From contig JAHYJN010000033.1 of NCBI GenBank assembly GCA_019428905.1, positions 1 through 32,661 of the forward strand: a stretch of DNA of 32,661 bases, given 5' to 3'. The DNA is from Candidatus Brevefilum sp. (lineage in GTDB: Bacteria; Chloroflexota; Anaerolineae; Anaerolineales; Anaerolineaceae). Below are positions 3,458 through 22,784 of the stretch, in pieces. Each line of letters begins with the position of its first letter. Position 1 is the stretch's first letter. The position numbers were made by a program, and so were the translations under genes. The notes under the pieces are model-generated. The model did no database searches. It had not been told where the DNA came from and saw only the letters and a list, made by a program, of their open reading frames with translations.

Positions 3458-3460
3458 AGG

Positions 3461-3532: not shown

Positions 3533-3565
3533 CGATTTGAGAGTCAAAATTATACCATAGGTGAA

Positions 3566-3665: not shown

Positions 3666-3812
3666 AATCCTGTAGGGTGGGCACCTCGTTTGTGCGCACC
3701 AATATGATGGTCCGGGGGACGAGATGGTGCCCAGGCAGGAGAACTGCGCACTCTACGACTTCGCACTGCCCGCACCAGGCGTGCCCAGTCAGGAGACCGG
3801 CGCGGACAACAC

Positions 3813-3909
3813 AGACCCCCGGGATTTTAAGCAGTGGTCGGTCGTTTTGGTTTGTCAGCAGGTGTAAATGAATGGTTTATGGAAATTGATCCGTAAATCC
3901 CGGGGGTCT
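3813..3909. repeat. 97-bp module with 15-bp terminal inverted repeats, copy 1
   Basis: AGACCCCCGGGATTT at 3813-3827 is the exact reverse complement of 3895-3909. The 67 bases between hold no ORF. Size and ends resemble a very small MITE-like element, but no target-site duplication is obvious. Confidence 0.7.
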
Positions 3910-3976
3910 TAAGATGTGTGTGGTGGGTTGCCGGGAAATCCGTTTGATGATGCGAATGGGGGAAGGGCGAGGTAGT

Positions 3977-4000
3977 GGGCGAGGCATGCCTCGCCCCTAC
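3977..4000 (-). repeat. GTAG-headed palindrome (REP-like), copy A
   Basis: A 20-bp perfect palindrome, GGGCGAGGCATGCCTCGCCC at 3977-3996, is followed by CTAC. On the minus strand this is GTAG plus hairpin, the architecture of REP sequences handled by RAYT transposases. It lies inside the first 359-bp repeat. Confidence 0.75.
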
Positions 4001-4200
4001 GGATTGACAAAATTGTTTTGCGGTGCCAATTAGGGCGCTTACTCCTATAAAGAACCCATGTAGGGTGGGCACCTCGTTTGTGCGCACCAATATGATGGTC
4101 CGGGGGACGAGATGGTGCCCAGGCAGGAGAACTGCGCATCCTACGGCTTTGCCCTGTCCTCACCAGCTGGCGCCCGCTAGGAGTCCGGCGCGGACAACAC

Positions 4201-4297
4201 AGACCCCCGGGATTTTAAGCAGTGGTCGGTCGTTTTGGTTTGTCAGCAGGTGTAAATGAATGGTTTATGGAAATTGATCAGGAAATCCCGGGGGTCT
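4201..4297. repeat. 97-bp module with 15-bp terminal inverted repeats, copy 2
   Basis: The same 15-bp inverted ends are found at 4201-4215 and 4283-4297. The interior is nearly identical to copy 1, with a small change next to the right arm. Confidence 0.7.
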
Positions 4298-4364
4298 TAA
4301 GATGTGTGTGGTGGGTTGCCGGGAAATCCGTTTGATGATGCGAATGGGGGAAGGGCGATGTCGT

Positions 4365-4388
4365 GGGCGAGGCATGCCTCGCCCCTAC
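4365..4388 (-). repeat. GTAG-headed palindrome (REP-like), copy B
   Basis: The same 20-bp palindrome plus CTAC as copy A, in the second 359-bp repeat. Confidence 0.75.
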
Positions 4389-4450
4389 GGATTGACAAAA
4401 TTGTTTTGCGGTGCCAAGTAGAATTCTAATTAACGAAATGATGGGCAGAC

Positions 4451-4474
4451 GGGCACGGCACGCCGTGCCCCTAC
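4451..4474 (-). repeat. GTAG-headed palindrome (REP-like), copy C
   Basis: GGGCACGGC pairs with GCCGTGCCC (4451-4459 with 4462-4470) and is followed by CTAC. Relative to copies A and B the stem has changed on both arms together, so base pairing is kept. It stands outside the 359-bp repeats. Confidence 0.75.
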
Positions 4475-4489
4475 AGTTACCCACCATTT

Positions 4490-4597
4490 TTCTGAGATTG
4501 CTTCGTCGCTACGCGAGGGGAGCCAGCGCCTCTTGGCGCTTGGCACTGCACTGATGCGATCTGACATCGCTCAGTTTGTCGCAATGTCAAATGAAAC
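4490..4597. repeat. Intergenic repeat-like segment with hairpins downstream of glnS
   Basis: The segment begins with GATTGCTTCGTCGCTACGCG and ends near TTGTCGCAATGTC, strings I associate with dispersed intergenic repeats in many metagenome-type genomes. It contains hairpins at 4522-4544 (GCGCC/GGCGC core) and 4556-4570 (GCGAT/ATCGC). On the minus strand these lie just after the glnS stop, so one may act as its terminator. Confidence 0.4.
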
Positions 4598-6280
<1,683 letters not shown>

Positions 6281-6469
6281 GGGACTCTCCAAAGGATAAT
6301 TTCTATTGGGACCACGGGGGTCAATAATCAGAGATTTATTATAGTATATTCTGCCATAACGCCCAAAGATTTGGTTGGGGGGGTTGAAAGATGGATCAGC
6401 TAACGAATTCTTAAAAGCGGAAGATGAATATATTTCAATATTATAATATCTATTAATATAAAAATATAA
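6281..6469. other. AT-rich upstream region of glnS
   Basis: This stretch becomes extremely AT-rich towards 6420-6468 and probably holds the glnS promoter, but I cannot pick a single convincing -35/-10 pair. I see no gene in it. Confidence 0.35.
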
Positions 6470-6493
6470 GGGCGAAGCATGCTTCGCCCCTAC
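6470..6493 (-). repeat. GTAG-headed palindrome (REP-like), copy D
   Basis: GGGCGAAGCATGCTTCGCCC at 6470-6489 is a perfect palindrome followed by CTAC. Relative to copy A, one G-C pair on each arm became A-T, again with pairing kept. It lies between glnS and the flavodiiron gene. Confidence 0.75.
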
Positions 6494-6523
6494 AGTTTCA
6501 ACCATTAAATATTAATTGGGGCA

Positions 6524-7726
6524 CTACTCGTTCGATTTGACCGCCCGGGCCAGCTGGACGCCCATCTCGTATGCCCGGCTGAGGTCAGTCTCGTTGGGGC
6601 CGCCCAGGAAGGTGAAGGCGTTCAAAACCTGCCAATCCATTTTTTCTGCCATGCGCATAAAATCAGCCTGCCCGCCGCCGCTCCAGGCTTTGCTGCCCAG
6701 GTAAGCGGTGGTTTTTTTGGTCACCCGCTTGCGGTCGGCCATCATCAGCACGTCCATCAGCGGTGGGAACAGGCCGCCTTCATAGGTGGGGGCGGCCGCC
6801 AGCACGCCGCGCCGGGTCCACAGGTCAGGCAGGATGTAGCTGACATGGGTCTTGCGTACGTCGTGCACTTTGACCGACACGCCTTCCGAGGCGATCCCGG
6901 CCAGGGTGGCGTTGAGGGCGCGCTCGGTGTTGCGGTACATCGTACCGAATAGGGCTGTGATCCCAACCTCAGCCGGCTGGTGATAATACTGAGACCAGGT
7001 CTGGTACAGCTGGAGGATGCGCCCCGGGTCTTTGCGCCAAATCAACCCGTGCGAAGGGGCAATCATCTCGATTGGCATCTCGGCAAATTTGCTGATGGCG
7101 CTCAAGACCGATTTGCTGAAGGCTGCCACGATGTTGGTGAAGTAGCGCAGCGCTTCGGCTTCATAGTAAGCCAGGTCGGTCACCGTGTCGTCAAAGATCC
7201 CGTCATCCAACACCCCGTAACCGCCAAAGCCGTCGCAGGGAAACAGGACCTGTTCCTCGACCATATAAGTCATCATGGTCTCCGGCCAGTGGACGAAGGG
7301 GGTGTAGACGAAGCGCAGGGTGTGCTTGCCGAGGGACAGCTCCTCGCCATTCGATAGGCGGGTGACATTCTCGGTGATGCCGTAGAAATCGTTGAGCATC
7401 CCCACGGTTTTGGGCATCCCCAAAATCTGGACGGATGGCGCCAGCTCTAAAACGCGCTTGAGCGCCCCGCTGTGATCCGGCTCCATGTGGTTGATGACCA
7501 CGTAATCCAGCGTGGTGATGTCAAACACCTGTGCCAGTTGGGCCAGGTAATCCTCGGTTAAGATTTCCTTGGAAAGGTCGATCAGGGCTGATTTATCATC
7601 GACCACCAGGTAAGCATTATAAGAAATGCCCTCACGGCTGATCGGCCACAGCCCTTCGAACAGGTCGGTGACGCGGTCATTTACGCCGACCCAGAAAACG
7701 CCTGGGCGAATCTCAATCGGTTTCAT
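6524..7726 (-). CDS. Flavodiiron protein (FprA family)
   Basis: Flavodiiron proteins reduce O2 to water and/or NO to N2O and protect anaerobes. The N-terminal metallo-beta-lactamase-like domain carries the diiron ligand set: H80-x-E82-x-D84-H85 in NHMEPDHSGA, then His in TPFVHWPET, Asp in FPCDGFG and His in APSHGLIW. The C-terminal flavodoxin domain begins about residue 255, with phosphate loop FGTMYRNTE and a later AAPTYEGG. The length of 400 residues is that of the simple class A type without an added rubredoxin domain. AGGAGGT lies just before the ATG. The gene starts 8 bases after the fba stop, so the two are almost certainly cotranscribed. Its electron donor is not evident here. Confidence 0.93.
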   Translation of the reverse strand: MKPIEIRPGVFWVGVNDRVTDLFEGLWPISREGISYNAYLVVDDKSALIDLSKEILTEDYLAQLAQVFDITTLDYVVINHMEPDHSGALKRVLELAPSVQILGMPKTVGMLNDFYGITENVTRLSNGEELSLGKHTLRFVYTPFVHWPETMMTYMVEEQVLFPCDGFGGYGVLDDGIFDDTVTDLAYYEAEALRYFTNIVAAFSKSVLSAISKFAEMPIEMIAPSHGLIWRKDPGRILQLYQTWSQYYHQPAEVGITALFGTMYRNTERALNATLAGIASEGVSVKVHDVRKTHVSYILPDLWTRRGVLAAAPTYEGGLFPPLMDVLMMADRKRVTKKTTAYLGSKAWSGGGQADFMRMAEKMDWQVLNAFTFLGGPNETDLSRAYEMGVQLARAVKSNE

Positions 7727-7734
7727 CGGACCTC

Positions 7735-8685
7735 CTATTTCGCCAACAGCTCCCGCACCTTCTCGAGCTGGCCTTCGCTTCCCAAGTAGGTATTCTTTTC
7801 GGCGATGAAATTGGCATATTCTTCCATGAAGATGGTGCCGGGTTTGCGCAGGTCAAACACCTCGGGGTGGTCGCGGAAGACCTCGCGATGCACGCGGGTC
7901 CACACCAGGCGGCCGTCGGTGTCGATGTTGATCTTGGTGACGCCCAGCTCTGCAGCTCGCTTGAACTGGTTGGCGTCGACGCCCTTGGCGCCCTCCAGCT
8001 TGCCGCCAGCAGCGTTGATGCGCTGCACCTCTTCCTGGGGCACCGAGCTTGAGCCGTGCATCACCAGGGGGAAGCCGGGCAGCTCTTTTTGGATCGCGGC
8101 CAGCACATCAAAATGCAGGGATTGGGAGCCGGAGAACTTGAATGCACCGTGGCTGGTGCCGATGGCAACCGCCAGGGAGTCACAGCCTGAGCGCTCGACG
8201 AATTCTCTGGCCTGTTTGGGGTCGGTCAGCTTGGCATCTGCTTCAGCGACCTGGACATGCTCTTCCACGCCGCCCAGCTGGCCTAATTCAGCTTCCACGA
8301 CGATGCCACGGGCATGGGCGGCATCCACTACACGGCGGGTGATGGCGATGTTGGTATCAAAGTCCTCATGGCTGGCGTCGATCATCACCGAGCTGTAGAA
8401 GCCGGATTCGATGCAATCCATGGCGGCTTCTTCGTCGCCGTGGTCTAAGTGGACCGCAAAAATGGCATCGGGGAAAACCTCGTCGGCGCTGCGGATCAAA
8501 CCCTCGAGCAGGACCTTATCCGAATAGGAGCGGGCGCCCTTGCTGATCTGGATGATAAAGGGTGACTGGGATTTGAGGTTGCCGCGGAACAGCCCCACCG
8601 TTTGTTCCAGGTTGTTGATGTTGTAGGCGCCGATGGCATATTTGCCGTATGCCGCTTCAAATAATTTCTTGGTTGTAACGATCAT
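7735..8685 (-). CDS. fba: Class II fructose-bisphosphate aldolase
   Basis: This zinc-dependent aldolase cleaves fructose-1,6-bisphosphate to dihydroxyacetone phosphate and glyceraldehyde-3-phosphate, or a related ketose bisphosphate. The metal and active-site motifs are visible: VHLDHGDEE (HxDH near residue 80), the VEAELGQLGG loop near 130, AIGTSHGAFK near 173, LVMHGSSSVP near 208, and INIDTDGRL near 252. The 316-residue length is normal. AAGGAGA precedes the ATG at the right spacing. It is the first gene of a two-gene unit with the flavodiiron protein and faces the divergent GDPD gene. Substrate could also be tagatose- or a related bisphosphate; the fructose assignment is by overall resemblance. 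Confidence 0.92.
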   Translation of the reverse strand: MIVTTKKLFEAAYGKYAIGAYNINNLEQTVGLFRGNLKSQSPFIIQISKGARSYSDKVLLEGLIRSADEVFPDAIFAVHLDHGDEEAAMDCIESGFYSSVMIDASHEDFDTNIAITRRVVDAAHARGIVVEAELGQLGGVEEHVQVAEADAKLTDPKQAREFVERSGCDSLAVAIGTSHGAFKFSGSQSLHFDVLAAIQKELPGFPLVMHGSSSVPQEEVQRINAAGGKLEGAKGVDANQFKRAAELGVTKINIDTDGRLVWTRVHREVFRDHPEVFDLRKPGTIFMEEYANFIAEKNTYLGSEGQLEKVRELLAK

Positions 8686-8763
8686 GATTTCTCCTTGGTT
8701 GAATTTTCTATGGTTGACCCCCGGATTGGAGATCGCACCGTGTCTGAACTACTCTAACCCTCA

Positions 8764-8769
8764 ATTATA
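8764..8769 (-). promoter_or_regulatory. Possible -10 element for the fba operon
   Basis: On the minus strand this reads TATAAT, about 80 bases before the fba start codon. I could not identify a matching -35. Confidence 0.3.
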
Positions 8770-8832
8770 CCCATAAATTTTCAGCGCTAACCGGCTTGAT
8801 TCAGTTTTGAAGACGATCAAACTCGGTGACCT

Positions 8833-8861
8833 TTTACAATTCATCGATTTGACGATAAAAT
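8833..8861 (+). promoter_or_regulatory. Predicted promoter for the GDPD-family gene
   Basis: TTTACA at 8833-8838 and TAAAAT at 8856-8861 are separated by exactly 17 bases. Transcription would begin near 8868, giving a leader of about 30 bases before the ATG at 8900. Confidence 0.55.
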
Positions 8862-8899
8862 AAGCCCTGAGCGATATCATTACACACAGTGGAGATTTA

Positions 8900-9823
8900 A
8901 TGCCTGAAACCACAGCGGACCGGGCTCGAAAACCGGTCACCCTGATCCATCACGCAGCCAACAACGGACATACGGCCCCTCCCGGTTCGTTAGCTGCCCT
9001 GGAGCAGTGCCTGAAGGCAGGCGCGGCCGTGGTGGAGATCGACCTGATCCCCCTTTCCGACGGGAGTTTTGCCCTGCTGCACGAGCAGGATCTGGCCGTG
9101 GAAACAGATGGGACGGGTAAAGCCCCCCAAATGCGGCGGGAGCAGGTCAGCGATCTGCGCTACCGGCTTAACGGCACGATCACAGATGAGCGGGTGGGTT
9201 TCCTGGAGGGCGCCGTCGAGCTATTGGCCGCCTATCCCAAGACACAGCGCTTGCAACTGGACTTGAAGCCCTTCACCCCACTCAGCGGTCCCTTATTGAC
9301 GCATTTCCTGGCGCTGATCGAACCGGTGAAATCGCGCATCCAGGTCACCTCGGTGGGTGACTGGGCTGTGCGCGCCCTGGCCGCAGCCGACCCGGCGTTG
9401 AGCTTGGGCTTTGACCCCCTGCTGTACCTGGACCAGGTGGAAGATCAACCGCGCCCTGAGGGGGTGCCGCCCTTCCGGGTGGGGGCGTATGGCTTGCTGG
9501 ATGATCACCCCCTGTCGGCCTATCAATGGGGTTCCCTGGGCGACTATTTTGCTGCCCGGGCGTCTGCCCTGCTGGCCCAGGTGGTCCCAGGCTGTGATTG
9601 GTTTATCCGGGCGGCGGTGCTCAAGATGGCATTGGAGGCCGGTTTCGATTGGATTGATTTCCTGCACCGGCAAGGCTCGACTGTGGATGCCTGGACGATC
9701 GATGTTAAGCAGCCTGATCAGGTTGAACTGGCCAGCTACCTGGTAGCGCGGGGTGTGGATGTGCTGACAACCGACAGACCCTCGCAGTTAGCCCAACAGA
9801 TAACCACAGCGACCCTGGTGTGA
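8900..9823 (+). CDS. Divergent glycerophosphodiester phosphodiesterase-family protein
   Basis: The fold family is the GDPD TIM barrel, whose members hydrolyse glycerophosphodiesters to sn-glycerol-3-phosphate and an alcohol. Evidence is the N-terminal LIHHAANNGHTAPPGS, then VVEIDLIPLSDGSFALLHEQD (E-x-D and catalytic-type His, about residues 46-68), and the C-terminal VDVLTTDRPSQLAQ closing strand. Several hallmark positions differ. The usual HRG is HHA, the usual ENT is replaced by PGS, and the usual E-x-K is LDLK. It may therefore have altered or weak activity, or act on another phosphodiester. There is no signal peptide, so it is probably cytoplasmic. GGAG precedes the ATG by 7 bases. Confidence 0.75.
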   Translation: MPETTADRARKPVTLIHHAANNGHTAPPGSLAALEQCLKAGAAVVEIDLIPLSDGSFALLHEQDLAVETDGTGKAPQMRREQVSDLRYRLNGTITDERVGFLEGAVELLAAYPKTQRLQLDLKPFTPLSGPLLTHFLALIEPVKSRIQVTSVGDWAVRALAAADPALSLGFDPLLYLDQVEDQPRPEGVPPFRVGAYGLLDDHPLSAYQWGSLGDYFAARASALLAQVVPGCDWFIRAAVLKMALEAGFDWIDFLHRQGSTVDAWTIDVKQPDQVELASYLVARGVDVLTTDRPSQLAQQITTATLV

Positions 9824-9870
9824 GTTCCCTTCCACTTCGCGGGAGAGTGTGCTAGGATGATCATTATCAA

Positions 9871-9882
9871 ATGTCTGACAAT
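9871..9882 (+). promoter_or_regulatory. Operator-like 12-mer identical to one upstream of the 8-oxoguanine deaminase gene
   Basis: ATGTCTGACAAT occurs here and at 18443-18454. It contains the near-palindrome TGTC-T-GACA and lies 25 bases before the epimerase start codon, a position where a bound repressor could block expression. A weak candidate promoter (TTCCAC 9830-9835, TAGGAT 9853-9858) lies just upstream. Confidence 0.4.
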
Positions 9883-9906
9883 TAACAGAGTAAGGTGTAA
9901 ACAGCG

Positions 9907-10839
9907 ATGAATTTTTTAATCACGGGCGGTGCGGGATTTTTAGGCGCGGCATTAAGCAACCGATTGGTGCGTCAGGGGCACCATGTACGGGTCCTTGACG
10001 ACCTCTCGACCGGCAACCCCAATTCTCTCAGCCCGGATATCCACTTCTCTCGGGGGGATATCAACGACCGTCCCAAATTATGGACACTACTGCAGGATAT
10101 CGATTGCGTCTACCACCTGGCGGCGCGCGTCTCGGTGCCTGAATCGATTTTGTTTCCCAGGGACTATAACCAGGTCAATGTCGGCGGCACGGCCACGCTG
10201 ATGGAAGCCGCTCGCGATGCCGGCACGCCCCGGGTTATCCTGGCGTCCTCCGGCGCGATTTACGGCAACCAAGCCACCCCGCTGATGTCTGAGTCAATGG
10301 TGCCCAACCCCGGTTCACCGTATGCGGTTTCAAAGCTCTCGGCCGAATGGTATGTGCGCACGATCGGGGCGCTTTCCGGCATCGAAACATTGTGCCTGCG
10401 GATTTTCAACGCGTATGGCCCAGGCCAGCGCATCCCGCCTTCCCATGCCCCGGTCATCCCCAATTTTATCCGCCAATCGCTGCAAAACGGCACCCTGGTG
10501 TTTCACGGGGACGCTAACCAAACGCGTGACTATGTATATGTGGACGATGTGGTCAATGCCCTGGTGGCTGCTGCCACCGTGCAGGGCGTGAACGGGCGGG
10601 TGATCAACGTCGGCAGTGGCACGGAGACCAGCATCCGTGACCTGGCCAAGGTGGTGATTGGCATCACCGGTGGGAACCCGGAAGAGGTGTATAACACGCG
10701 TATCAGCGGCGGTGTCTCACGCATGTGTGCCGACCTCTCGCTGGCGAAGGAAAAGCTGGATTACATGCCCCTGGTGCCCCTGGAGATGGGCGTCCGCCTG
10801 ACCCTGGAGGGCGACTCGCAGTTTAAAAATGGCAGGTAG
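9907..10839 (+). CDS. NAD-dependent sugar nucleotide epimerase/dehydratase (GalE-like)
   Basis: This is an extended short-chain dehydrogenase/reductase of the UDP-sugar 4-epimerase type. The NAD-binding motif GGAGFLG is at residues 7-13. The VYHLAARVSV strand, ASSGAIYG and the catalytic Tyr-Lys pair in SPYAVSK follow in the right order, with LRIFNAYGPGQ and DYVYVDDV further on. The length of 310 residues is typical. It would interconvert or oxidise/dehydrate a nucleotide sugar in the cytoplasm, but the exact sugar is not evident. It could supply the substrate of the NeuD-like acyltransferase encoded 3 kb downstream; that link is inference. Its TAG stop is the first triplet of a heptamer array. 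A weak AAGG Shine-Dalgarno lies about 10 bases before the ATG. Confidence 0.88.
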   Translation: MNFLITGGAGFLGAALSNRLVRQGHHVRVLDDLSTGNPNSLSPDIHFSRGDINDRPKLWTLLQDIDCVYHLAARVSVPESILFPRDYNQVNVGGTATLMEAARDAGTPRVILASSGAIYGNQATPLMSESMVPNPGSPYAVSKLSAEWYVRTIGALSGIETLCLRIFNAYGPGQRIPPSHAPVIPNFIRQSLQNGTLVFHGDANQTRDYVYVDDVVNALVAAATVQGVNGRVINVGSGTETSIRDLAKVVIGITGGNPEEVYNTRISGGVSRMCADLSLAKEKLDYMPLVPLEMGVRLTLEGDSQFKNGR

Positions 10840-10982: not shown

Positions 10983-11579
10983 ATGCCTGTGATTGCACGC
11001 GACTTTTACCATCGCCCGGCATTAGACGTGGCACGGGATCTGTTGGGCTGCCGACTGGTACGGCAGCAAAACGGTGCGCGCCTGGCCGGCATCATTCTGG
11101 AGACCGAAGCCTACCAAGGCGAAGAAGATCTAGGCTGCCACGCCTCAGCGGGGAAAACGCCCCGCACCAGCGTGATGTACGGCCCACCCGGGCATGCTTA
11201 CATCTACTTCACCTACGGCATGCATTGGCTGCTGAATGCGGTCACCGACCGTGAAGAGGTCCCCGCTGCGGTGCTGATCCGTACCATCCAGCCGGTGGAA
11301 GGTGCAGATTTGATGGCAGAAAACCGGCCTTACCAGGCCTTTCAAAGGGGCTGGACGGATGGTCCTGCCAAACTGACCCAGGCTTTGGGCATCAACGGCG
11401 ATTGTAACCGCATGGACCTGTGTGACCCAGCTGGTGGGTTGTGGATTGAGCTTGGGGAGGCGGTCTCTGCGGAAGTGATTGAACAAACTGCGCGCATAGG
11501 GCTCAATGCTGTACCTGAGCCCTGGAAGTCGATTCCCTGGCGTTTCGGATTGCGGGAGGGGGTTATTCGTGGATCATAA
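10983..11579 (+). CDS. mpg: 3-methyladenine DNA glycosylase (AAG/MPG family)
   Basis: This base-excision repair enzyme removes 3-methyladenine, hypoxanthine and related alkylated purines from DNA. The 198-residue length and motifs fit the family. These are RDFYHRPALDVARDLLG at the N-terminus, ILETEAYQGEEDLGCHAS with the catalytic Glu, RTSVMYGPPGHAYIYFTYGMHW in the middle, and GPAKLTQALGI near residue 126. TAAAAT ends 6 bases before the ATG and there is no Shine-Dalgarno sequence, so the mRNA may be leaderless. Its last 11 bases overlap the GTG start of the E1-alpha gene, suggesting translational coupling with an apparently unrelated pathway. Confidence 0.93.
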   Translation: MPVIARDFYHRPALDVARDLLGCRLVRQQNGARLAGIILETEAYQGEEDLGCHASAGKTPRTSVMYGPPGHAYIYFTYGMHWLLNAVTDREEVPAAVLIRTIQPVEGADLMAENRPYQAFQRGWTDGPAKLTQALGINGDCNRMDLCDPAGGLWIELGEAVSAEVIEQTARIGLNAVPEPWKSIPWRFGLREGVIRGS

Positions 11580-12456
11580 TGCACAGCTGTACCGGGGGTT
11601 GCTTGCTATCCGCCGGTTTGAAACCCTGCTGATGGCGCAGTTTAAAACCGGGATTTTCCCGGGCACCACCCATACCAGCCTGGGGCAGGAGGCCAACGCG
11701 GTGGGTGTGCTGACGCACCTGGCCGAAGATGATGTCGTCGTCAGCAATCACCGCTGTCATGGGCATTTCCTGGCTTACGGCGGCAATCCGCAGGCGCTAT
11801 TTGCGGAATTGATGGGCAAGCCTTCCGGGGTATGCGGCGGCGTGGGCGGGTCGCAGCACCTTCACTGGCGCAACTTTTACTCCAGCGGTGTGCAGGGCGG
11901 GACGGTTGCCATGGCTGCCGGCATGGCGTTGGCAGAGAAGCGCGCCGGGCGTGGCGCGATCGTGATTGATTTCATGGGTGACGGTACCCTGGGGGAGGGG
12001 ATCGTGTATGAATGCTTAAACATGATCTCACTGTGGCAGCTGCCGATCCTGCTTGTATTGGAGAATAACCAGATTGCCCAAACCACCCCTGCCAGCCTGG
12101 CGGTTGCCGGGAGCATACAACAGCGTTTTGCAGCCTTTGGCATTCAGACCGTTGAGCTGGATAGCAGTGACGTGTTAGAGATTCTGCCCCTGGCCGGTGA
12201 TTTGATCCGCCAGGTCAGGTCACAGCGCGAACCCCGGGCTTTGATCGTCACCACCGCGCGGCTGGGCTCCCATTCCAAAGGGGATGACACCCGCTCACCC
12301 CGCGAACTCGAACGGTTGTGGCAAGCCCGCGACCCGCTCACGATCCAAGCTGGGCGTCTGTCAGAAGACACCCGTAAGGCGGTTGAGGCGGATGTCGAAG
12401 CTGCCATCCAGGGCGCGTTTGCAGCCGCATTGGCCGCAGAAGGCGGAATGCGATGA
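11569..12456 (+). CDS. 2-oxoacid dehydrogenase E1 component, alpha subunit
   Basis: E1-alpha pairs with E1-beta to form a thiamine-diphosphate enzyme that decarboxylates a 2-oxoacid and acylates a lipoyl domain. The ThDP motif is intact: GDG at residues 137-139 and NN at 166-167. Other family elements are TSLGQEANAVG near residue 37, NHRCHGHFLAYG near 62, and GSQHLHWRNFYSSGVQGGTV near 91. I chose GTG at 11569 because GGAGGGG lies about 7 bases upstream; this gives 295 residues, slightly short for the family. The gene overlaps mpg by 11 bases and E1-beta by 4. It resembles acetoin/pyruvate dehydrogenase E1; the true substrate is unknown because the usual E2 catalytic partner is missing. Confidence 0.9.
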   Translation: MDHNAQLYRGLLAIRRFETLLMAQFKTGIFPGTTHTSLGQEANAVGVLTHLAEDDVVVSNHRCHGHFLAYGGNPQALFAELMGKPSGVCGGVGGSQHLHWRNFYSSGVQGGTVAMAAGMALAEKRAGRGAIVIDFMGDGTLGEGIVYECLNMISLWQLPILLVLENNQIAQTTPASLAVAGSIQQRFAAFGIQTVELDSSDVLEILPLAGDLIRQVRSQREPRALIVTTARLGSHSKGDDTRSPRELERLWQARDPLTIQAGRLSEDTRKAVEADVEAAIQGAFAAALAAEGGMR

Positions 12457-13496
12457 GCGACCACGTTCCGCGCACCGTGCTCGACTCGCTCAACCTGGGC
12501 TTACACCAGGCCATGCACGATGACCCGGATGTGGTGCTGCTGGGTGAGGACCTGCTGGATCCCTACGGCGGGGCGTTTAAAGTAGCACGCGGCCTCTCCA
12601 GCGCTTTCCCGAAGCAGGTGTTGACCACACCCATCTCAGAGGCCGGCATCACCGGGATCGCCGGCGGCATGGCATTGCGCGGCCTGCGCCCAGTGGTCGA
12701 GATCATGTTCGGCGATTTCACCACCTTGATTGCTGACCAGGTCATCAACCACCTGGCTAAATTCAACGGGATGTATCATGGGCAGGCGCAGGCGCCGGTC
12801 GTGATCCGCACCCCGATGGGCGGACGGCGGGGGTATGGGCCGACTCATTCCCAAACTCTGGAAAAATATTTTCTGGGCGTACCCGGGCTGACTGTGCTGG
12901 CGCCCTTTAACCTGTTGGGCGAAGACCCCCTGGGCGCGCCCGGCCAGCTGCTGTGTGAGGCGATCCTTAGGGGAGATTCACCGGCTTTGTTTGTTGAACA
13001 TAAGCTGCAGTACCTGTTGAAGCTCCATGCCACCCAGGAACTGGCGGAATATTCAGTTTCAGTGCACCATATGGGCGTTCAATTTGACCGTCCGTTTTAT
13101 GCCTTGAGGCTAAAATCTGCTCCGGCGGCACAGATCACGTTGGCAGCTTACGGGTACATGGCACAGCTGGCGCTGGATGCCCTCCATCAACTGGCTTATG
13201 AGGATGAGATCTTCTGTGAACTGCTGGTGCCGACCCAGCTAGCCCCCTTTGAGCTGGCACCGCTGTTCGAAGCCGTTGCGCGCACAGGTCGGCTGCTCAC
13301 GATCGAAGAGGGCACCTTCAGCCTGGGGTGGGGCGCCGAGGTGCTGGCCAGGACGGCTGAAACCCTGGGCAGCGGGCTGAGGACAGCCGGGCGCCTGGCA
13401 GCCAGGGAGGGTGTGATCCCCGTTGCGCCGAACCTAGAGGCGGAAAGCTTACCCGGTACGGCTGATATTATCCGCCGGGTACGAGAAATGGTGTGA
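12453..13496 (+). CDS. 2-oxoacid dehydrogenase E1 component, beta subunit
   Basis: The beta subunit completes the ThDP active site with E1-alpha. It has the pyrimidine-binding transketolase domain at the N-terminus, with LLGEDLLDPYGGAFKVARGL near residue 29, TPISEAGITGIAGGMALRGL near 53, and RTPMGGRRGYGPTHSQTLE near 112. The C-terminal transketolase domain follows, with LTIEEGTFSLGWGAEVLA near 283. At 347 residues it is slightly longer than most. It overlaps the alpha gene by ATGA and is followed 4 bases later by the lipoyl-domain fusion gene, so all three proteins are likely made together in fixed proportion. No E3 (dihydrolipoamide dehydrogenase) is in the window. Confidence 0.92.
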   Translation: MSDHVPRTVLDSLNLGLHQAMHDDPDVVLLGEDLLDPYGGAFKVARGLSSAFPKQVLTTPISEAGITGIAGGMALRGLRPVVEIMFGDFTTLIADQVINHLAKFNGMYHGQAQAPVVIRTPMGGRRGYGPTHSQTLEKYFLGVPGLTVLAPFNLLGEDPLGAPGQLLCEAILRGDSPALFVEHKLQYLLKLHATQELAEYSVSVHHMGVQFDRPFYALRLKSAPAAQITLAAYGYMAQLALDALHQLAYEDEIFCELLVPTQLAPFELAPLFEAVARTGRLLTIEEGTFSLGWGAEVLARTAETLGSGLRTAGRLAAREGVIPVAPNLEAESLPGTADIIRRVREMV

Positions 13497-13500
13497 CTTC

Positions 13501-14625
13501 ATGCAAAAACTAACCCCGATCAAAATCCCGTTGTTGAACCCGAATGAGCCAGAAGCGTTGTTGGCAGCGATCACGGTGGAAGAAGGCGCGGCGGTTGAAG
13601 CCGGCCAGGTGGTGGCGTTGGTCGAAACCACCAAGTCCACCGGTGAAGTACAGGCTGATACAGGGGGGTTCCTGGTCGGGTTGCGCTTTAAAGAAGGTGT
13701 GTCACTCCAGGCCGGGGATGTGCTGGCCTATATCGCTGACTCGCCGAGTGCCAAAGACCCGTCCCTGCCGCCCTGGGCAGGTGAAAGCGCTGGGGTTGTT
13801 CTGGCTGGAGAGGATTTAGGCGATTTGCGCATCACCGAGCCGGCACGGGAATTAGCCCTGGCAGAGGGTGTGCCATTAGCGTCCCTGCCGAAGGGGACTT
13901 TGGTCACCCGCCAGGTGGTGCAGGATTTATTGCGGCAAACTGAAACGCACCCTTTGGTCGGGGCGCCGTCGGGAGATAGACGCCTGGTGATCTACGGCGC
14001 CGGGGGGCACGGCTGTTCGCTGGCTGCCCTGCTGCGCCAAAATGAGGATTTTGACATCATCGGCTTCCTTGATGATGGGGTGCCCCAGGGTTCGGAGGTG
14101 GATGGCTTGCCGGTCTTGGGCGGCGCTGAGCAGCTGGAAATCCTGGCAGGAGCGGGGATTCGCCTGGCAATCAACGGTGTGGGCGGGGTTGGGGACCTGC
14201 CAGCACGGCTTGCAGTGTATGCCAAGCTGGCTGAGGCGGGCTTCTTCTGTCCCACGGTGATTCATACGACGGCCTTTATCGAGGATAGTGCAACCCTGGG
14301 AGATGGTGTCCAAGTATTTCCCCTGGCTTATGTTGGCATCCGGGTGAATGTGGGTTATGGCTGTATCATCAATACCGGCGCGATTGTCTCGCACGATTGC
14401 ACTTTGGCGCCGTATGTCAACCTCTCACCGGGAGCGACCCTGGCGGGCGGGGTCAGGGTTGGTGAGGCTGCCCTGATCGGGATGCGCGCCACGGTCAACC
14501 TGAATGTGACGGTTGGGAAGCGGGCGCGCATTGGCAATGGGGCCACCGTCAAATCTGATGTGCCCGATAACGGGGTTGTCCCGGCTGGGACGATTTGGCC
14601 GCCCCGCCACACCCCACACCCGTAA
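13501..14625 (+). CDS. Lipoyl domain / E3-E1-binding domain / NeuD-PglD acyltransferase fusion
   Basis: This 374-residue protein has an E2-like front half and a sugar-acyltransferase back half. Residues 5-80 form a biotinyl/lipoyl domain with the modifiable Lys45 in ETTKSTGEV. Residues 111-145 read like a peripheral-subunit-binding domain (ITEPARELALAEGVPL, then KGTLVTRQVVQDLL). From about 160 a PglD/NeuD N-terminal domain begins with RRLVIYGAGGHG, followed by a left-handed beta-helix of hexapeptide repeats to the C-terminus. The catalytic-type His298 is present in VSHDC, then LSPGATLAGGV. The chloramphenicol-acetyltransferase-like E2 core is absent. The gene follows E1-beta by 4 bases. I infer that an acyl group made by E1 on Lys45-lipoate is passed to an amine or hydroxyl of a sugar, not to CoA. 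Lys45 could alternatively carry biotin. Confidence 0.85.
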   Translation: MQKLTPIKIPLLNPNEPEALLAAITVEEGAAVEAGQVVALVETTKSTGEVQADTGGFLVGLRFKEGVSLQAGDVLAYIADSPSAKDPSLPPWAGESAGVVLAGEDLGDLRITEPARELALAEGVPLASLPKGTLVTRQVVQDLLRQTETHPLVGAPSGDRRLVIYGAGGHGCSLAALLRQNEDFDIIGFLDDGVPQGSEVDGLPVLGGAEQLEILAGAGIRLAINGVGGVGDLPARLAVYAKLAEAGFFCPTVIHTTAFIEDSATLGDGVQVFPLAYVGIRVNVGYGCIINTGAIVSHDCTLAPYVNLSPGATLAGGVRVGEAALIGMRATVNLNVTVGKRARIGNGATVKSDVPDNGVVPAGTIWPPRHTPHP

Positions 14626-14682: not shown

Positions 14683-15135
14683 ATGTTCAGTAAAAAGAAA
14701 ACAACAACCGCATCATCACCCGCTGCCCCGGTCGAACGGGTCACTTCAGTATTGGGCCCCGGCATTCACTGGAATGGCGACCTGCGCGGTAAGGGTGGCG
14801 TGCGCATTGAAGGCGCCTTAGAAGGTGAGATTGCCGTGCGGGGCTTGGTGATCATCGGCGAAACGGGGCGGGTGACCTGCCAGACGCTTAAAGCCGGGAC
14901 AGTGATCGTGGCCGGCTCGATGAATGGGCAGATTGTCGCAGAAAAATTAGAGATTCGTGCTACTGGTCGGGTGTACGGTGATGTGACCGTGCAATCCATC
15001 TCAACCGATGAGGGCGCTTTCTTGCGGGGCAAGGTCACGATGGAAGAGAAAGTGGACCTTTCTGACCTCCCTTCGGGCGATAAGGACAACCCTGTTGAGA
15101 CGGATGAAAACGCGCCACAGGATGAGGTCGGTTAA
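14683..15135 (+). CDS. Bactofilin family protein
   Basis: Bactofilins are small polymer-forming cytoskeletal proteins with a right-handed beta-helix core, often membrane-associated and linked to cell-wall or polysaccharide localisation. The 150-residue protein has a short basic N-terminus (MFSKKK) and a core from about residue 20 to 118 with the regular repeat pattern G-x-I-x-G. Examples are HWNGDLRGKGGVRIEGALEG, GETGRVTCQTLKAGTVIVAG and ATGRVYGDVTVQSI. An acidic tail completes it. AGGAGG lies about 7 bases before the ATG. It follows the NeuD-fusion gene by 57 bases and precedes proS by 3. Confidence 0.93.
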   Translation: MFSKKKTTTASSPAAPVERVTSVLGPGIHWNGDLRGKGGVRIEGALEGEIAVRGLVIIGETGRVTCQTLKAGTVIVAGSMNGQIVAEKLEIRATGRVYGDVTVQSISTDEGAFLRGKVTMEEKVDLSDLPSGDKDNPVETDENAPQDEVG

Positions 15136-18528: not shown

Positions 18529-19914
18529 ATGCCAACCCTATTGATCAAGAATATCGAGATGCTGGTGACGATGGACGACCAGCGCCGAGAATTACCCCAT
18601 ACCAACCTGTTTATCAAAGACGGTTTCATCCACGCCATTGGCCCGTTGACGGATATGCCCGAGAAGGCCGACCAAGAGCTTGACCTTTCCGGGCATATTG
18701 TTTTTCCCGGCTTTGTCAACACCCATCACCATTTTTACCAAACCCTGACCCGGGCTGTCCCTAAAGCCCAAAATGCCAACCTGTTCAACTGGCTGGTGAC
18801 CCTCTACCCGATTTGGGCACGGCTCACACCTGAGGATATTCGCATCTCAACCCAAACAGCCCTGGCTGAATTGGCCCTTTCAGGCTGCACCACGGCCTCA
18901 GATCACCTATACCTGTTCCCCAATGGCTCCAAACTCGACGACGAGATTTTAGCCGCACGTGAGGTTGGTTTGCGTCTGCACGCCTCTCGCGGTTCTATGA
19001 GCCTGGGCCAGTCAGCAGGCGGTTTGCCGCCAGACAGTGTGGTGGATTCAGAAGCAGATATCCTTAAAGACAGCCAGCGCCTGATCGAAACCTATCACGA
19101 CCCGAACCCGGGTTCTATGGTGCAAATTGTTTTGGCGCCGTGCTCACCCTTCAGCGTGACCGGGGAGTTGATGCGTCAATCGGCTGCGCTGGCACGTGAA
19201 TATGGCGTGCATCTGCACACGCACCTGGCGGAGACCAAGGATGAAGAGGATTTCTGCATTGAAAAATTTGGCCACCGACCTGTGGCTTATATGCAGGAAG
19301 TGGATTGGATTGGGAACGATGTGTGGTTTGCTCACAGCGTCCATGTGAACGATGCTGAGATCCGGCTGTATGCGGAAACTGGCTGTGGCGTAGCCCATTG
19401 TCCCGGATCAAATATGCGGCTGGCATCTGGAATTGCACCAATTGTCAAAATGCTGACGCAGGGCGTGAAAGTCGGGCTGGGAGTGGATGGCTCTGCCAGC
19501 AATGATGCCTCGCACCTGCTGGGCGAAGCCCGCCTGGCGATGCTCTTGGCCCGATTGGATGCCGGGTTGGCAGGTGCATCGCGCTCAGGTGAGGATGCGC
19601 CCCCCTTGATGACCGCCCGCCAGGCATTGGAAATTGCCACCCGGGGCGGTGCTGCCGTGCTGGGGCGCGAAGATATCGGATCGTTAGCGGTGGGAAAGTG
19701 CGCAGATTTGTTTGCCATCAACCTCAACCGGTTGGATTACGCCGGCGCACTGCATGACCCAGTGGCTGCTGCCCTGTTCTGCGCCCCACAAACCGTTGAT
19801 TTCAACATTGTGGGTGGAAAGATCATTGTCAATCAAGGTCAGATGGCAACCCTCGACATACCCAACCTGGTCAATCAACATAACCAGGCTGCGGAAAGGT
19901 TATTGAATGGATAA
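18529..19914 (+). CDS. 8-oxoguanine deaminase / SsnA-like amidohydrolase
   Basis: This metal-dependent amidohydrolase probably deaminates 8-oxoguanine (to urate) or a closely related purine. The 461-residue protein shows the family metal ligands: H66 and H68 in VNTHHHFYQTLTRA, His in HTHLAETKDEE, His in FAHSVHVND, and Asp in GLGVDGSASND. Strings such as ASRGSMSLGQSAGGLPPDS, LAPCSPFSVTG, AHCPGSNMRLASGIAP and ATRGGAAVLGRED match the 8-oxoguanine deaminase branch closely, better than atrazine chlorohydrolase relatives. An upstream promoter with two operator-like palindromes indicates regulated expression. The stop overlaps the GntR start by 8 bases (ATGGATAA). SsnA homologues occur in the E. coli ygeW region and purine-degradation clusters, matching the genes downstream. 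Confidence 0.88.
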   Translation: MPTLLIKNIEMLVTMDDQRRELPHTNLFIKDGFIHAIGPLTDMPEKADQELDLSGHIVFPGFVNTHHHFYQTLTRAVPKAQNANLFNWLVTLYPIWARLTPEDIRISTQTALAELALSGCTTASDHLYLFPNGSKLDDEILAAREVGLRLHASRGSMSLGQSAGGLPPDSVVDSEADILKDSQRLIETYHDPNPGSMVQIVLAPCSPFSVTGELMRQSAALAREYGVHLHTHLAETKDEEDFCIEKFGHRPVAYMQEVDWIGNDVWFAHSVHVNDAEIRLYAETGCGVAHCPGSNMRLASGIAPIVKMLTQGVKVGLGVDGSASNDASHLLGEARLAMLLARLDAGLAGASRSGEDAPPLMTARQALEIATRGGAAVLGREDIGSLAVGKCADLFAINLNRLDYAGALHDPVAAALFCAPQTVDFNIVGGKIIVNQGQMATLDIPNLVNQHNQAAERLLNG

Positions 19915-20650
19915 AAGTCATACGGATGACCGCTCCACCTACCAGCGCTTGCAGGTTGAGCTTTCAGAACTGATCCAAAACGCGCCCAAAGGTTCAAAAC
20001 TGCCTTCTGAACCTGTACTGGCACAGAAGATGGGCGTTTCCCGCGCGACCCTGCGCGAAGCGATGCGCACCTTTGAGAGCCAGGGGATGCTGCGGCGTCA
20101 ACAGGGTGTGGGCACCTTTATTGTTGGTCCGACACAGGTGATTGACTCAGGGTTGGAGGTTTTGGAGAGCATTGAAACCCTGGCTGAAAGGATTGGCCTG
20201 GAGGTTTCGATGGGTGAATTTGAGGTGAACCATATCGAGGCAGACCCTAAGCAAGCCAAGAAACTCAACCTTACCATCGGTGATCCTGTGGTTGAGGTGC
20301 GGCGCGTGATCTTAACCCATGATTCACCTGTCGCTTACCTGGTCGACATCCTACCCGAAGATGTACTAAACCCGGAGATCCTGGTCGCACGCTTTACAGG
20401 ATCCGTCCTCGATTTGCTGATCAACATCGGCGATCCCCCCCTAGCCACTTCAAAAACCGAGATCAGCGCAGTGCATGCGCCGGTTGATGTGGCCAAAGCG
20501 CTGAACATCCAACGCGGCGATACACTGTTGTTGCTGACAGCACTCTTGTTCAATGAAGCAGGTGACCCGGTCGATTTTTCCCACAGCTACTTCCTGCCGG
20601 GCTATTTTCGCCTGCACATTATTCGTAAAATCGGTGGTGTGAATCTTTAA
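19907..20650 (+). CDS. GntR-family transcriptional regulator (HutC/UTRA type)
   Basis: The 247-residue protein has an N-terminal winged helix-turn-helix at about residues 10-75, with LPSEPVLAQKMGVSRATLREAMRTFESQGMLRRQQGVGTFI as its hallmark region. A UTRA effector-binding domain follows from about 95 to 240. This architecture (HutC subfamily) senses small metabolites and usually represses the adjacent catabolic operon. It is translated from an ATG overlapping the deaminase stop by 8 bases and is followed 55 bases later by the ATCase-like gene, so the regulator is inside its own operon. The palindromes at 18443 and 18493 are its most likely targets. The effector is probably a purine-derived intermediate, but that is inference. 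Confidence 0.92.
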   Translation: MDKSHTDDRSTYQRLQVELSELIQNAPKGSKLPSEPVLAQKMGVSRATLREAMRTFESQGMLRRQQGVGTFIVGPTQVIDSGLEVLESIETLAERIGLEVSMGEFEVNHIEADPKQAKKLNLTIGDPVVEVRRVILTHDSPVAYLVDILPEDVLNPEILVARFTGSVLDLLINIGDPPLATSKTEISAVHAPVDVAKALNIQRGDTLLLLTALLFNEAGDPVDFSHSYFLPGYFRLHIIRKIGGVNL

Positions 20651-20705
20651 GTGAGCACCCCATTTTTTTGTCAACACAATCATTTACTAAAAGGAGTAAA
20701 GTAAC

Positions 20706-21659
20706 ATGCGTAGTTTTTTAGGTCGTGACATTCTTTCTTTGAAAGATTTTGAACGAAACGAGTTTTTCAGGATTTTTGAAATCGCTGAAGAGCTTGAACC
20801 CATCGCCCGGAACCGGCAAAATTCTGATCTGTTGAAAGAAAAGACCCTGGTGACCGCTTTCTATCAGCCCAGCACCCGCACCCGCCTGGCACACGAGGCT
20901 GGGATGATCCGCCTGGGTGGACAGGTGACCGGATTTGCCGATGCCAAGATGACCCGTGCTGGTGACTTTTACCAGGAATCGATCAAAGACACCGTTAAAA
21001 TGTTGGAGTTCTACGGTGATGTGATCGTCATGCGCCACTTCCAGCAAGGCGCTCCCCATGAGGCTGCTAAATGGGCCAGCATCCCGATCATCAATGGTGG
21101 TGACGGCTGGGGCGAACACCCCACCCAGATCCTGTCCGACTTCTACACGGTTTATCGTGAGAAAGGTCATTTGGATGGGCTGCGCTGGTTGGCAGTCGGT
21201 GATATGCGCATGCGCACCATGCACTCCCTCGCCTACGGTCTGACCCAATTTGACTGCCCGATCACCTTCGTCTCGCCACCCGAGATGTCCTTGACCGAAG
21301 AATTCAAGGCAGACCTTGACAGATACAGCCTGGATTACAAAGAAGCTGAGCATGTTGAGCAAGCGATTGCCGATGCGGATGTAATCCTGGTTGAACCGGT
21401 CGTTCAGCCCGATTACACCAAGTCCCGCGACGAGCGTGACGGTGATGTGGGTATGACCCCCGCCAACTACAAGATCACCCGTGAGCTGCTGTCGACCAAG
21501 GCTAAATCGGATGCGATTTTGCTGCACTCCCTGCCCCGCATGGATGAAATTCCTCCTGATGTGGATATCACCAAGTGGTCCCGCTACTGGCAGGAAGCCT
21601 TCAATGGCGTGGTGATGCGCATGGCGCTGTTAGCCCTCGTCCTAGGTGCGACGGAGTAA
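20706..21659 (+). CDS. Aspartate-carbamoyltransferase-family protein with altered active site
   Basis: This 317-residue protein belongs to the ATCase/OTCase superfamily, which moves carbamoyl groups between carbamoyl phosphate and an amine. The carbamoyl-phosphate loop PSTRTR is at 55-60. MRHFQQGA, GDGWGEHPTQ (HPTQ 138-141) and HSLPR also match the ATCase branch. The 80s loop, which in true ATCase brings a catalytic Lys (K84 in E. coli), has no matching Lys: here it reads TRAGDFYQESIKDT (83-96). This argues against a role in pyrimidine synthesis. There are no other pyr genes of standard type next to it; instead it precedes a YgeW-like transcarbamoylase and carbamate kinase. I infer a catabolic role, phosphorolysing a ureido compound to carbamoyl phosphate. 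AAAGGAG precedes the ATG. Confidence 0.82.
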   Translation: MRSFLGRDILSLKDFERNEFFRIFEIAEELEPIARNRQNSDLLKEKTLVTAFYQPSTRTRLAHEAGMIRLGGQVTGFADAKMTRAGDFYQESIKDTVKMLEFYGDVIVMRHFQQGAPHEAAKWASIPIINGGDGWGEHPTQILSDFYTVYREKGHLDGLRWLAVGDMRMRTMHSLAYGLTQFDCPITFVSPPEMSLTEEFKADLDRYSLDYKEAEHVEQAIADADVILVEPVVQPDYTKSRDERDGDVGMTPANYKITRELLSTKAKSDAILLHSLPRMDEIPPDVDITKWSRYWQEAFNGVVMRMALLALVLGATE

Positions 21660-21678
21660 TCGTCAAACCATCAAACTG

Positions 21679-21741
21679 AACGGCCAGCCATCCTTCCATG
21701 AAGACGCTTGATGCGAGAAAACTGGAAGGATGGCAGCCGTT
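21679..21741 (+). promoter_or_regulatory. Long intercistronic hairpin before the YgeW-like gene
   Basis: A perfect 12-bp stem (21687-21698 with 21723-21734) is extended outward by AACGGC/GCCGTT across a small bulge. The RBS AAAGGAGA of the next gene follows directly. No T tract follows, so it looks like an mRNA-processing or stabilising element rather than a terminator. Confidence 0.65.
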
Positions 21742-21761
21742 GACTTAAAAGGAGAAACAAT

Positions 21762-22742: not shown

Positions 22743-22784
22743 ATAATTTTTGGCAACTACTCAGCTTGTGAGGGATTAGGGGGT

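Follow-up and report, generated by a model that had tools for sequence, protein, structure and literature searches.

A lipoyl-NeuD fusion encoded behind E1 genes in Chloroflexota: a probable acyl relay from a swinging arm to amino sugars

Three adjoining genes of Candidatus Brevefilum sp. (Chloroflexota, Anaerolineaceae) probably encode an acyl-relay enzyme, in which an E1 loads an acyl group, probably a glycolyl unit from a ketose phosphate, onto Lys45 of a lipoyl domain, and a NeuD-type acyltransferase in the same polypeptide transfers it to an amino sugar with no intermediary. This reading draws on domain content and gene order, on how well the genes are conserved and occur or are missing together, and on phylogeny. 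The window is the whole analysed stretch of DNA, 32,661 nucleotides long, and its relevant features are as follows.

9907..10839, + strand: NAD-dependent epimerase/dehydratase, syntenic neighbour, possible sugar supply (PF01370, 1.1e-59; in 21/80 loci)
11569..12456, + strand: E1-alpha, putative glycolyl-type clade by tree (295 aa, GTG start; PF00676 (E1_dh), 3e-47; His235)
12453..13496, + strand: E1-beta, same clade as E1-alpha by tree (347 aa; PF02779/PF02780; Glu32 and His132)
13501..14625, + strand: lipoyl-PSBD-NeuD fusion, a predicted swinging arm plus sugar acyltransferase (374 aa)
13522..13734, + strand: lipoyl domain of the fusion, residues 8-78 (Biotin_lipoyl, 3.4e-10; Lys45 codon 13633-13635)
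13831..13941, + strand: PSBD-like segment of the fusion, residues about 111-147 (hhalign, model helices, conserved residues)
13981..14622, + strand: NeuD/PerB-type acyltransferase part, PglD_N (161-243) plus left-handed beta helix (TIGR03570, Foldseek; His298 codon 14392-14394)
14683..15135, + strand: bactofilin, syntenic neighbour (PF04519, 2e-23; in 26/80 loci)

An earlier sequence-only reading of this DNA had described two overlapping E1 genes followed closely by a single fusion frame, and the ORF coordinates (11569-14625) bear this out: the E1 genes overlap by 4 bases and the fusion starts four bases past the E1-beta stop. The GTG start of E1-alpha sits behind GGGAGGGGG, and an in-frame ATG at 11506 falls within the upstream glycosylase gene. 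There is no E3 gene in the operon and no acyl-carrier gene on the contig, the genome's only PP-binding match lying on contig C38.

Most of the domain structure previously read from the letters of the fusion was recovered by profile searches. Pfam matches Biotin_lipoyl at 8-78, around Lys45, as well as PglD_N at 161-243 and Hexapep; NeuD family TIGR03570 scores 183.6 bits against a cut-off of 160.8, and the CAT core of an ordinary E2 (PF00198, 2-oxoacid_dh) has no Pfam match in the fusion, in keeping with its reported absence. The PSBD-like segment held up in part: Pfam E3_binding finds no match in the fusion, but a profile-profile hhalign comparison with the lipoyl and PSBD regions of the genome's three E2s covers it (98.9%, E 2e-17), and a structure model places two helices there, at 113-121 and 137-147. 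By hhalign the lipoyl-PSBD part is also homologous to three actinobacterial lipoyl-CAT-type proteins. The nearest folds to the NeuD part are PerB, PglB, PglD and VioB; Foldseek recovers PerB (4ea7; TM 0.89 by target length) and PglB (4m99), and its listing also contains LpxA, LpxD and LpxD-ACP structures. His298 aligns with the HDC histidine of PglB and PerB, the catalytic residue of those enzymes.

Eighty Chloroflexota loci were kept from 290 relatives in alignment A1. The suspicion that a sequencing or assembly error had joined two separate genes was rejected because the fusion recurs in many assemblies. Residues were counted in the window plus 57 of the 80 loci, whose fusions are 43-74% identical to the window copy; the other 23 were omitted because they were cut or had not been selected. 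Among these 58 fusions, Lys45, Glu42 and N-x-N-E are invariant, as are R110, A119 and T136 of the PSBD-like segment, and His298 is found in 57. Pfam Biotin_lipoyl spans both biotinyl and lipoyl domains, which leaves room for a biotinylated Lys45, or for an unmodified relic beside unrelated E1 genes. M-K-M is the biotin signature, however, and the lysine motif is T-K-S/T/A in 58/58; on this motif biotin at Lys45, raised earlier as an objection, was rejected, and this alternative as a whole is very improbable given also the alignment to E2 lipoyl-PSBD regions and the linkage to E1 genes. Of the 80 loci, 65 extend 2.3 kb or more upstream of the fusion, and 62 of these have both E1 genes ahead of it on the same strand. 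The sole fusion among the 65 without any E1 gene, at locus L148, carries His298Gln, and the genome whose contig C343 was matched to it (G065) has no E1-alpha of the window type. Certain locus pairs (e.g. L016/L097, L027/L161, L028/L148, L082/L123 and L084/L139) were taken as one genome represented twice and were not summed.

Presence and absence of the two components also coincide. In a sample of 400 genomes from the phylum, seven, including that of the window, hold a full-length fusion of at least 41% identity, and the same seven have an E1-alpha above 330 bits; these seven are not independent, four belonging to one genus and three to one family, and the counts depend on at most four candidates per genome scored in one scan, at most six in the other, and E-value limits set by the analyst. 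Conversely, none of 15 genomes tested with a NeuD ortholog lacking the lipoyl lysine has an E1-alpha of the window type (further armless NeuD matches, or those cut at contig ends, were left out); their best score is 174 bits, compared with 358-386 bits in three fusion genomes. Ten of these 15 armless orthologs fill the slot of the fusion, with a glycosylase gene on one side and a bactofilin gene on the other. At locus L039 a weak lipoyl-like stretch remains without the lysine, and at L097 most of the E1 and lipoyl part is lost while the PSBD-NeuD frame is still open. Because armless orthologs stay in the slot and the L097 frame is open, the NeuD lineage can evidently persist without the arm, there presumably using acyl-CoA.

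The existence of armless orthologs, together with the CoA bound by NeuD relatives of known structure, would suit an arrangement in which the fusion merely tethers the E1 close to NeuD, with a housekeeping E2 moving the acyl group to CoA and NeuD drawing on acyl-CoA as usual. We regard this as improbable. A separate true E2 for the window E1 had been named as a possible objection; the three E2 (PF00198) genes found in the genome each adjoin another E1. Near a fifth E1 pair (contig C121, locus L071; E1-alpha 30% identical), tblastn gave no lipoyl match and visual inspection of the listed ORFs showed no recognisable E2. Tethering also leaves unexplained both the invariance of Lys45 and position 325, which is Leu in 78/78 fused NeuDs (the window copy and those of 77 loci, after L097, L108 and L143 were dropped from the 80 as truncated) and Gln in 15/15 armless orthologs, a comparison in whose tree the bootstrap had not settled. 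Armless orthologs at the same locus offer a natural comparison for a change of donor in an acyltransferase.

The E1 subunits are intact by their catalytic residues, E1-alpha His235 and E1-beta Glu32 and His132 each being invariant in 19/19 sequences compared, and E1-beta matches Transket_pyr (3.9e-26) and Transketolase_C (6.3e-13). In trees, both subunits group with RenH and loci L169-L171 (support 100/99 and 100/100), apart from eight ordinary E1s; the window family branches as their sister instead of falling among them, the E1-alpha tree being long-branched, and identity to them is 45-51% for E1-alpha and 39-41% for E1-beta. E1 relatives at L168, L171, L190 and L191 adjoin lipoyl-CAT proteins (L190 and L191 being outside the tree), and L171 also adjoins ACP and NRPS genes. 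Published clusters of the Nap/Qnc/Scl type (QncN/QncL/QncM, SclQ1-4, NapB/NapD) reportedly derive a two-carbon unit, glycolyl or hydroxyethyl, from ketose phosphates and hand it to a carrier protein. The glycolyl assignment is based on the tree position with RenH and three actinobacterial clusters and on the resemblance of the gene content of these clusters to that of the published Qnc, Scl and Nap systems. No paper on the role of RenH appeared among the matches listed in a search of open-access titles and abstract openings.

Because both E1s group with E1s of clusters that resemble the published glycolyl-type ones, the 2-oxoacid decarboxylation originally proposed is doubtful for the window copy, and the E1 substrate probably differs from a 2-oxoacid, judging by the sequences; the other half of that proposal, in which lipoamide hands the acyl group straight to a sugar amine, stays the best reading of them. 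A version of the relay in which the E1 is a true decarboxylase of pyruvate or another 2-oxoacid, passing on acetyl or another simple acyl group, draws on the PDH-like Pfam and NCBIfam families of the window E1s, on the N-acetyltransferase activity of NeuD relatives of known structure, and on locus L189 in genome G254, where the E1 paired with a lipoyl-NeuD fusion is of the PDH type, its beta subunit passing NF006667. We consider it unlikely, though deserving of attention, in view of the separation from ordinary E1s in both trees and of PDH-family scores of 211 bits for E1-alpha and 176 for E1-beta against cut-offs of 394 and 321, which are strict, as the PDH-type E1-alpha of L189 also misses with 352 bits.

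The acceptor is likely a 4-amino-4,6-dideoxy nucleotide sugar, as far as homology and gene neighbourhood can indicate. A GT2 gene had earlier been offered as a sign of surface-polysaccharide synthesis, along with the epimerase and bactofilin; the GT2 gene is a weak hint because it lies 10.5 kb away amid amino-acid-type genes. A better sugar link is found in relatives, where a DegT aminotransferase lies near the operon in 37/80 loci and a PglC-like transferase in 32/80. In the window genus these two genes are on other contigs, the best matches in the window's own genome being 68% and 63% identical. The placement of DegT on another contig would also be compatible with a hydroxyl or a different amine as acceptor, and some enzymes that go by the name NeuD are O-acetyltransferases of sialic acid. 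Such an acceptor seems unlikely to us, since the structures most like the NeuD part are N-acetyltransferases for perosamine and for viosamine-type and bacillosamine-type sugars, and the nearest PDB relative of the linked aminotransferase is perosamine synthetase.

Under the proposed relay, the fusion would be lipoylated on Lys45, as its motif and invariance suggest. E1-alpha and E1-beta with thiamine diphosphate would then take a two-carbon unit, most likely glycolyl, for example from xylulose 5-phosphate, and reductively acylate the arm, as expected from the E1 clade. The arm would swing to the NeuD part of the same protein, which, from its domain family and neighbours, may use the acyl group to acylate a nucleotide 4-amino-4,6-dideoxy sugar, a product of the DegT aminotransferase, at its 4-amino position. 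The N-glycolyl (or N-acetyl) product would be placed on a lipid carrier by the PglC-like transferase, and a shared lipoamide dehydrogenase, docked on the PSBD-like segment, could reoxidise the dihydrolipoyl arm.

Lipoyl arms feed CoA in 2-oxoacid complexes, one-carbon transfer in glycine cleavage, and ACP in Nap/Qnc-type systems. Like PDH and BCKDH complexes, the window system has E1-alpha and E1-beta with catalytic residues, a lipoyl domain, and a PSBD-like segment by hhalign and model; unlike them, it has no CAT core or operon E3, its E1 falls outside the branch formed by the eight ordinary E1s, and no CoA product is expected. With RenH/RenI and L169-L171, which stand here for the glycolyl-to-ACP type, it shares an E1 branch in both trees, as a sister lineage, and a homologous lipoyl part, theirs with N-x-N/S-D and ETSK. 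The proteins of L168 and L171, however, end in a 2-oxoacid_dh CAT where the window has NeuD, and the published systems reportedly deliver to a carrier protein, of which the window's contig has none. PglD, PerB, VioB and NeuD share its family, fold and histidine, but the structures listed hold CoA or acetyl-CoA, and the window protein carries a lipoyl-PSBD arm and comes with an E1 of its own. LpxA and LpxD, which take their acyl group from the arm of acyl-ACP, provide a left-handed beta-helix precedent for acceptance from a carrier protein, with ACP acting in trans rather than a lipoyl domain in cis.

If the relay is correct, the lipoyl swinging arm also feeds glycan building directly, and central metabolism could supply the acyl groups of surface sugars with no demand on CoA. 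It would predict N-glycolyl sugars in Anaerolineae glycans and make the lipoyl arm a modular donor domain for engineered sugar acylation. A pairing of lipoyl with NeuD, or of E1 with NeuD, is undescribed among the matches listed from open-access titles and abstract openings; the flagellin-glycan "lipoylation" of PMC4875605 was set aside as unrelated, since the word there means fatty-acid modification.

Locus L189 adds an independent pairing of an E1 with a lipoyl-NeuD fusion, which favours the relay. On the opposing side, the two distant lipoyl-NeuD proteins of genomes G254 and G392 occur without the window E1 type: G254 has the PDH-type one, and no E1 was found on the short contig carrying the G392 gene. 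More tentatively, at somewhat less than an even chance, we propose a route to N-glycolyl sugars that needs neither CoA nor ACP, in which a transketolase-like E1 moves a two-carbon unit from a central ketose phosphate to the lipoyl arm of a sugar N-acyltransferase fusion. In this version lipoyl-to-sugar transfer has at least two origins, one involving a glycolyl-type E1, in the window and beside a second, distant NeuD type in G027 and G059, and one involving the PDH-type E1 of G254. A scan of genome contigs with one protein as the query gave no match. In a plasmid collection, no record covered 80% of the query for the window, L050 or L189 fusion, and a phage search made with E1-alpha only returned a top match 34.5% identical.

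The sequence-only reading had described two overlapping E1 genes followed 4 bases later by a single lipoyl/NeuD reading frame, and coordinates and Pfam/NCBIfam domains agree with that description. The three genes are tightly spaced within 11569-14625 on the + strand, and the E1 genes overlap by 4 bases.

11569-12456, + strand: E1-alpha (E1_dh)
12453-13496, + strand: E1-beta (transketolase pyrimidine and C-terminal domains)
13501-14625, + strand: fusion ORF, 374 aa (Biotin_lipoyl 8-78, PglD_N 161-243, hexapeptide repeats)

The fusion also exceeds the TIGR03570 (NeuD) cut-off (183.6 vs 160.8 bits). No CAT domain was matched in it by Pfam or NCBIfam, in keeping with the proposed absence of an E2 core. 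The PSBD-like segment is less clear-cut: it has no Pfam match, but two helices are predicted, and in profile comparison the lipoyl plus PSBD part aligns with the three E2s of the same genome (98.9%) and, at a better E-value, with three proteins from actinobacterial glycolyl-type clusters (99.4%). In a structure model built from 58 aligned sequences (mean pLDDT 88.6), the second half matches PerB, gonococcal PglB, VioB and PglD, with a best target TM of 0.90; E2 proteins are among the weaker matches.

Among the window's genome and 100 relatives, the fusion was matched in 58 of 101 at E 1e-20 or better. Most of the best 30 of these 58 matches, which were fetched, are full-length fusions with upstream E1 sequence; L016, L018 and L033 are cut, L016 keeping only a piece of E1-alpha, and no E1 was seen in the fetched stretches of L018, L028 and L033. 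A scan of named genomes yielded 290 relatives, of which 80 were kept; their titles name Chloroflexota, Anaerolineae or genera assigned to these groups. The proposed gene order proved widespread: where a locus extends 2.3 kb or more upstream of the fusion (65 loci), both E1 genes precede it on the same strand in 62, and about 150 bases or less separate E1-beta from the fusion in 54 of the 62. Since the fusion recurs with upstream E1 genes across relatives, an artefact joining two genes is ruled out. Asn13, Asn15, Glu16, Glu42, Thr44, Lys45, Arg110, Ala119 and Thr136 are invariant in 58 of 58 aligned fusions, and His298 differs in one.

Among the three exceptions, L161 has E1-beta only, and an E1-alpha of the window's kind lies on another contig of the genome taken to be its own, G036; L148 lacks E1; and L097 has large deletions. 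In L097 (6640-7060; a contig equal in length to that of L016, G007:C33), E1-alpha is without its middle, E1-beta is nearly gone and the lipoyl part is lost, with the PSBD-NeuD frame still open, a state that reflects either joint decay or misassembly. Two variants of the arrangement were also observed. About 1.4 kb separates E1-beta from the fusion in L101, L105, L106 and L159, and in L101 this gap (5712-6980) holds a beta-propeller (NHL/SMP-30-like) gene. In L082 (7123-9261, on a contig shared with L123), one 713-aa reading frame holds both E1-alpha and E1-beta.

A separate E2 serving the window's E1 had been considered as an alternative. In the genome (92% complete), five E1-alpha genes and three proteins with PF00198 were found; all three E2s lie within about 3 kb of E1-alpha genes other than the window's, and no spare E2 was found. 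The fifth E1-alpha (30% identical to the window's) forms an E1-alpha/E1-beta pair at 8343-10372 of locus L071 (contig C121), and neither an E2 nor a lipoyl gene was noted alongside it. Lipoamide dehydrogenases, two of which score above the curated cut-off (the match of one includes a stop), and one lipoate/octanoyl-transferase-type gene could in principle suffice for lipoylation and reoxidation. The sole acyl-carrier-type (PP-binding) match in the genome is on a contig other than the window's.

The lipoyl arm and this type of E1 tend to be present or absent as a pair. Fifteen genomes of the window's own family were examined that carry a NeuD ortholog (45-57% identical) without the lipoyl lysine; in 10 of them this ortholog lies between glycosylase and bactofilin genes, as in the window. 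None of the 15 shows an E1-alpha of the window's kind (best match 174 bits), compared with 358-386 bits in three fusion-bearing genomes. This E1-alpha is also missing from a fourth fusion genome searched, G065, whose fusion (taken to be that of L148) has Gln in place of His298 and looks as if it were decaying. Across an even draw of 400 genomes from the phylum, seven have a full-length fusion that is at least 41% identical, and an E1-alpha above 330 bits occurs in these seven and no others (Fisher's p 1e-13, kinship ignored; four of the seven belong to one genus and three to one family). In this draw, G264 and G409 have E1-alphas near 228 bits beside lipoyl-CAT proteins, and the lipoyl-NeuD proteins of G254 and G392 are distant ones that lack the window's E1 type as a partner. 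One branch of the NeuD tree (95/89) divides fused from arm-less forms, and five positions distinguish them, foremost 325 (Leu in 78/78 fused, Gln in 15/15 arm-less). The tree itself gives no direction; a weak lipoyl-like stretch in L039 (16.4 bits, below the Pfam cut-off, lysine lost) suggests loss of the arm.

In the plasmid collection, the window's E1-alpha and E1-beta match best the renieramycin-plasmid protein RenH (45% and 41%) and proteins from Streptantibioticus cattleyicolor, Nonomuraea and one Streptomyces cluster (NRPS, MbtH, ACP, E1-alpha, E1-beta, E2); among the papers listed for RenH, none on its role was seen. E1 trees place the window family, the G027/G059 pair, RenH and three actinobacterial E1s on one side (E1-alpha 100/99, with long branches flagged; E1-beta 100/100), opposite the four other E1s of the window's genome and four E1s from proteobacteria or Thermus; within this clade the window family is sister to RenH and the rest (93/97; 86/89). 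E1-beta Glu32 and His132 and E1-alpha His235, which we take to be the catalytic residues, are kept, and the clade-specific stretches DPYGGAFK, RGYGPTHS and HSKGDD are largely common to members. According to the scleric acid study (PMC6335953), a C2 glycolyl unit is made and attached under QncN/QncL/QncM direction, and a ketose phosphate is the proposed source for SclQ1-4; this set, with a ThDP subunit, a subunit of transketolase type, a lipoyl-plus-acyltransferase protein and an ACP, matches the Streptomyces cluster (L171). The dnacin study (PMC7570522), citing Peng et al. 2012, has NapB/NapD homologs move a xylulose 5-phosphate-derived hydroxyethyl unit to a carrier protein. From the E1 kinship with RenH and the actinobacterial clusters, and from the likeness of gene sets to the published systems, we infer, short of proof, that the arm probably carries a glycolyl group. 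The E1s of G264 and G409, in loci L190 (2022-5364) and L191 (6138-9211), 39-46% identical to the window's and beside lipoyl-CAT proteins, mark possible natural-product loci in Chloroflexota.

Among solved structures, the NeuD domain is closest to enzymes that N-acetylate perosamine, viosamine-type and bacillosamine-type sugars. In the fetched stretches around the operon, 37 of 80 loci have a conserved DegT aminotransferase and 32 of 80 a PglC-like phosphoglycosyl transferase; the best matches in the window's genome lie elsewhere (C76, 68%; C41, 63%). The L101 DegT is PseC-like by profile, below the cut-off, with perosamine synthetase nearest in the PDB, and a DegT ortholog (60-69%) also occurs in 8 of 15 arm-less loci. 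These structural relatives and neighbours make an NDP-4-amino-4,6-dideoxy sugar, bound for a lipid-linked glycan, the probable acceptor.

From domains, linkage and phylogeny, a likely sequence of steps can be proposed: E1 would acylate the lipoyl arm, which would then reach the NeuD active site, much as LpxA/LpxD-type enzymes use a carrier arm; His298 would activate the sugar amine, and a shared E3 would reoxidise the dihydrolipoyl arm. Nap/Qnc/Scl-type systems have a similar E1-lipoyl front end and deliver the acyl group to an ACP, whereas here a sugar acyltransferase replaces the CAT domain. All component parts are already known, and no description of the E1/lipoyl-NeuD pairing was seen among the matches listed from the open-access literature; direct lipoyl-to-sugar transfer would be of high interest if it proves true.

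Among the indirect evidence for a relay, the recurrence of lipoyl-NeuD proteins next to E1 genes of more than one type weighs most. G254 (locus L189) has a lipoyl-NeuD fusion with a canonical ETDK motif (NeuD 162.4, barely above the cut-off of 160.8), a PDH-type E1-alpha (352 bits, below its own cut-off) and an E1-beta above the PRK09212 cut-off, apparently a second invention with a different E1.

2647-8615 (G254:C2), one strand: PglC-like stretch (44% by tblastn), lipoyl(ETDK)-NeuD, PDH-type E1-alpha and E1-beta, DegT aminotransferase, followed by a protein judged Wzz-like from its start; a compact set

In G027 and G059, window-clade E1s accompany a lipoyl-NeuD protein that shares only about 25% identity with the window's in its NeuD part; in G392, E1 is absent from the 7.5-kb contig that carries the lipoyl-NeuD protein. 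Trios of E1-alpha, E1-beta and lipoyl-NeuD with a very different NeuD half were observed in L049 (6564-9603) and L050 (5983-9070), the latter near methyltransferase and GFO/IDH/MocA oxidoreductase genes (Pfam) and, by our own reading of the sequence, near sulfate-activation and nucleotide-sugar dehydrogenase genes.

Elsewhere in the window, 18529-28808 holds an amidohydrolase, a GntR/UTRA regulator, two carbamoyltransferase genes, an amino acid kinase and PALP enzymes; this content suggests a cluster for breaking down amino acids or ureides, and the GT2 gene (25157-26107) lies inside it.
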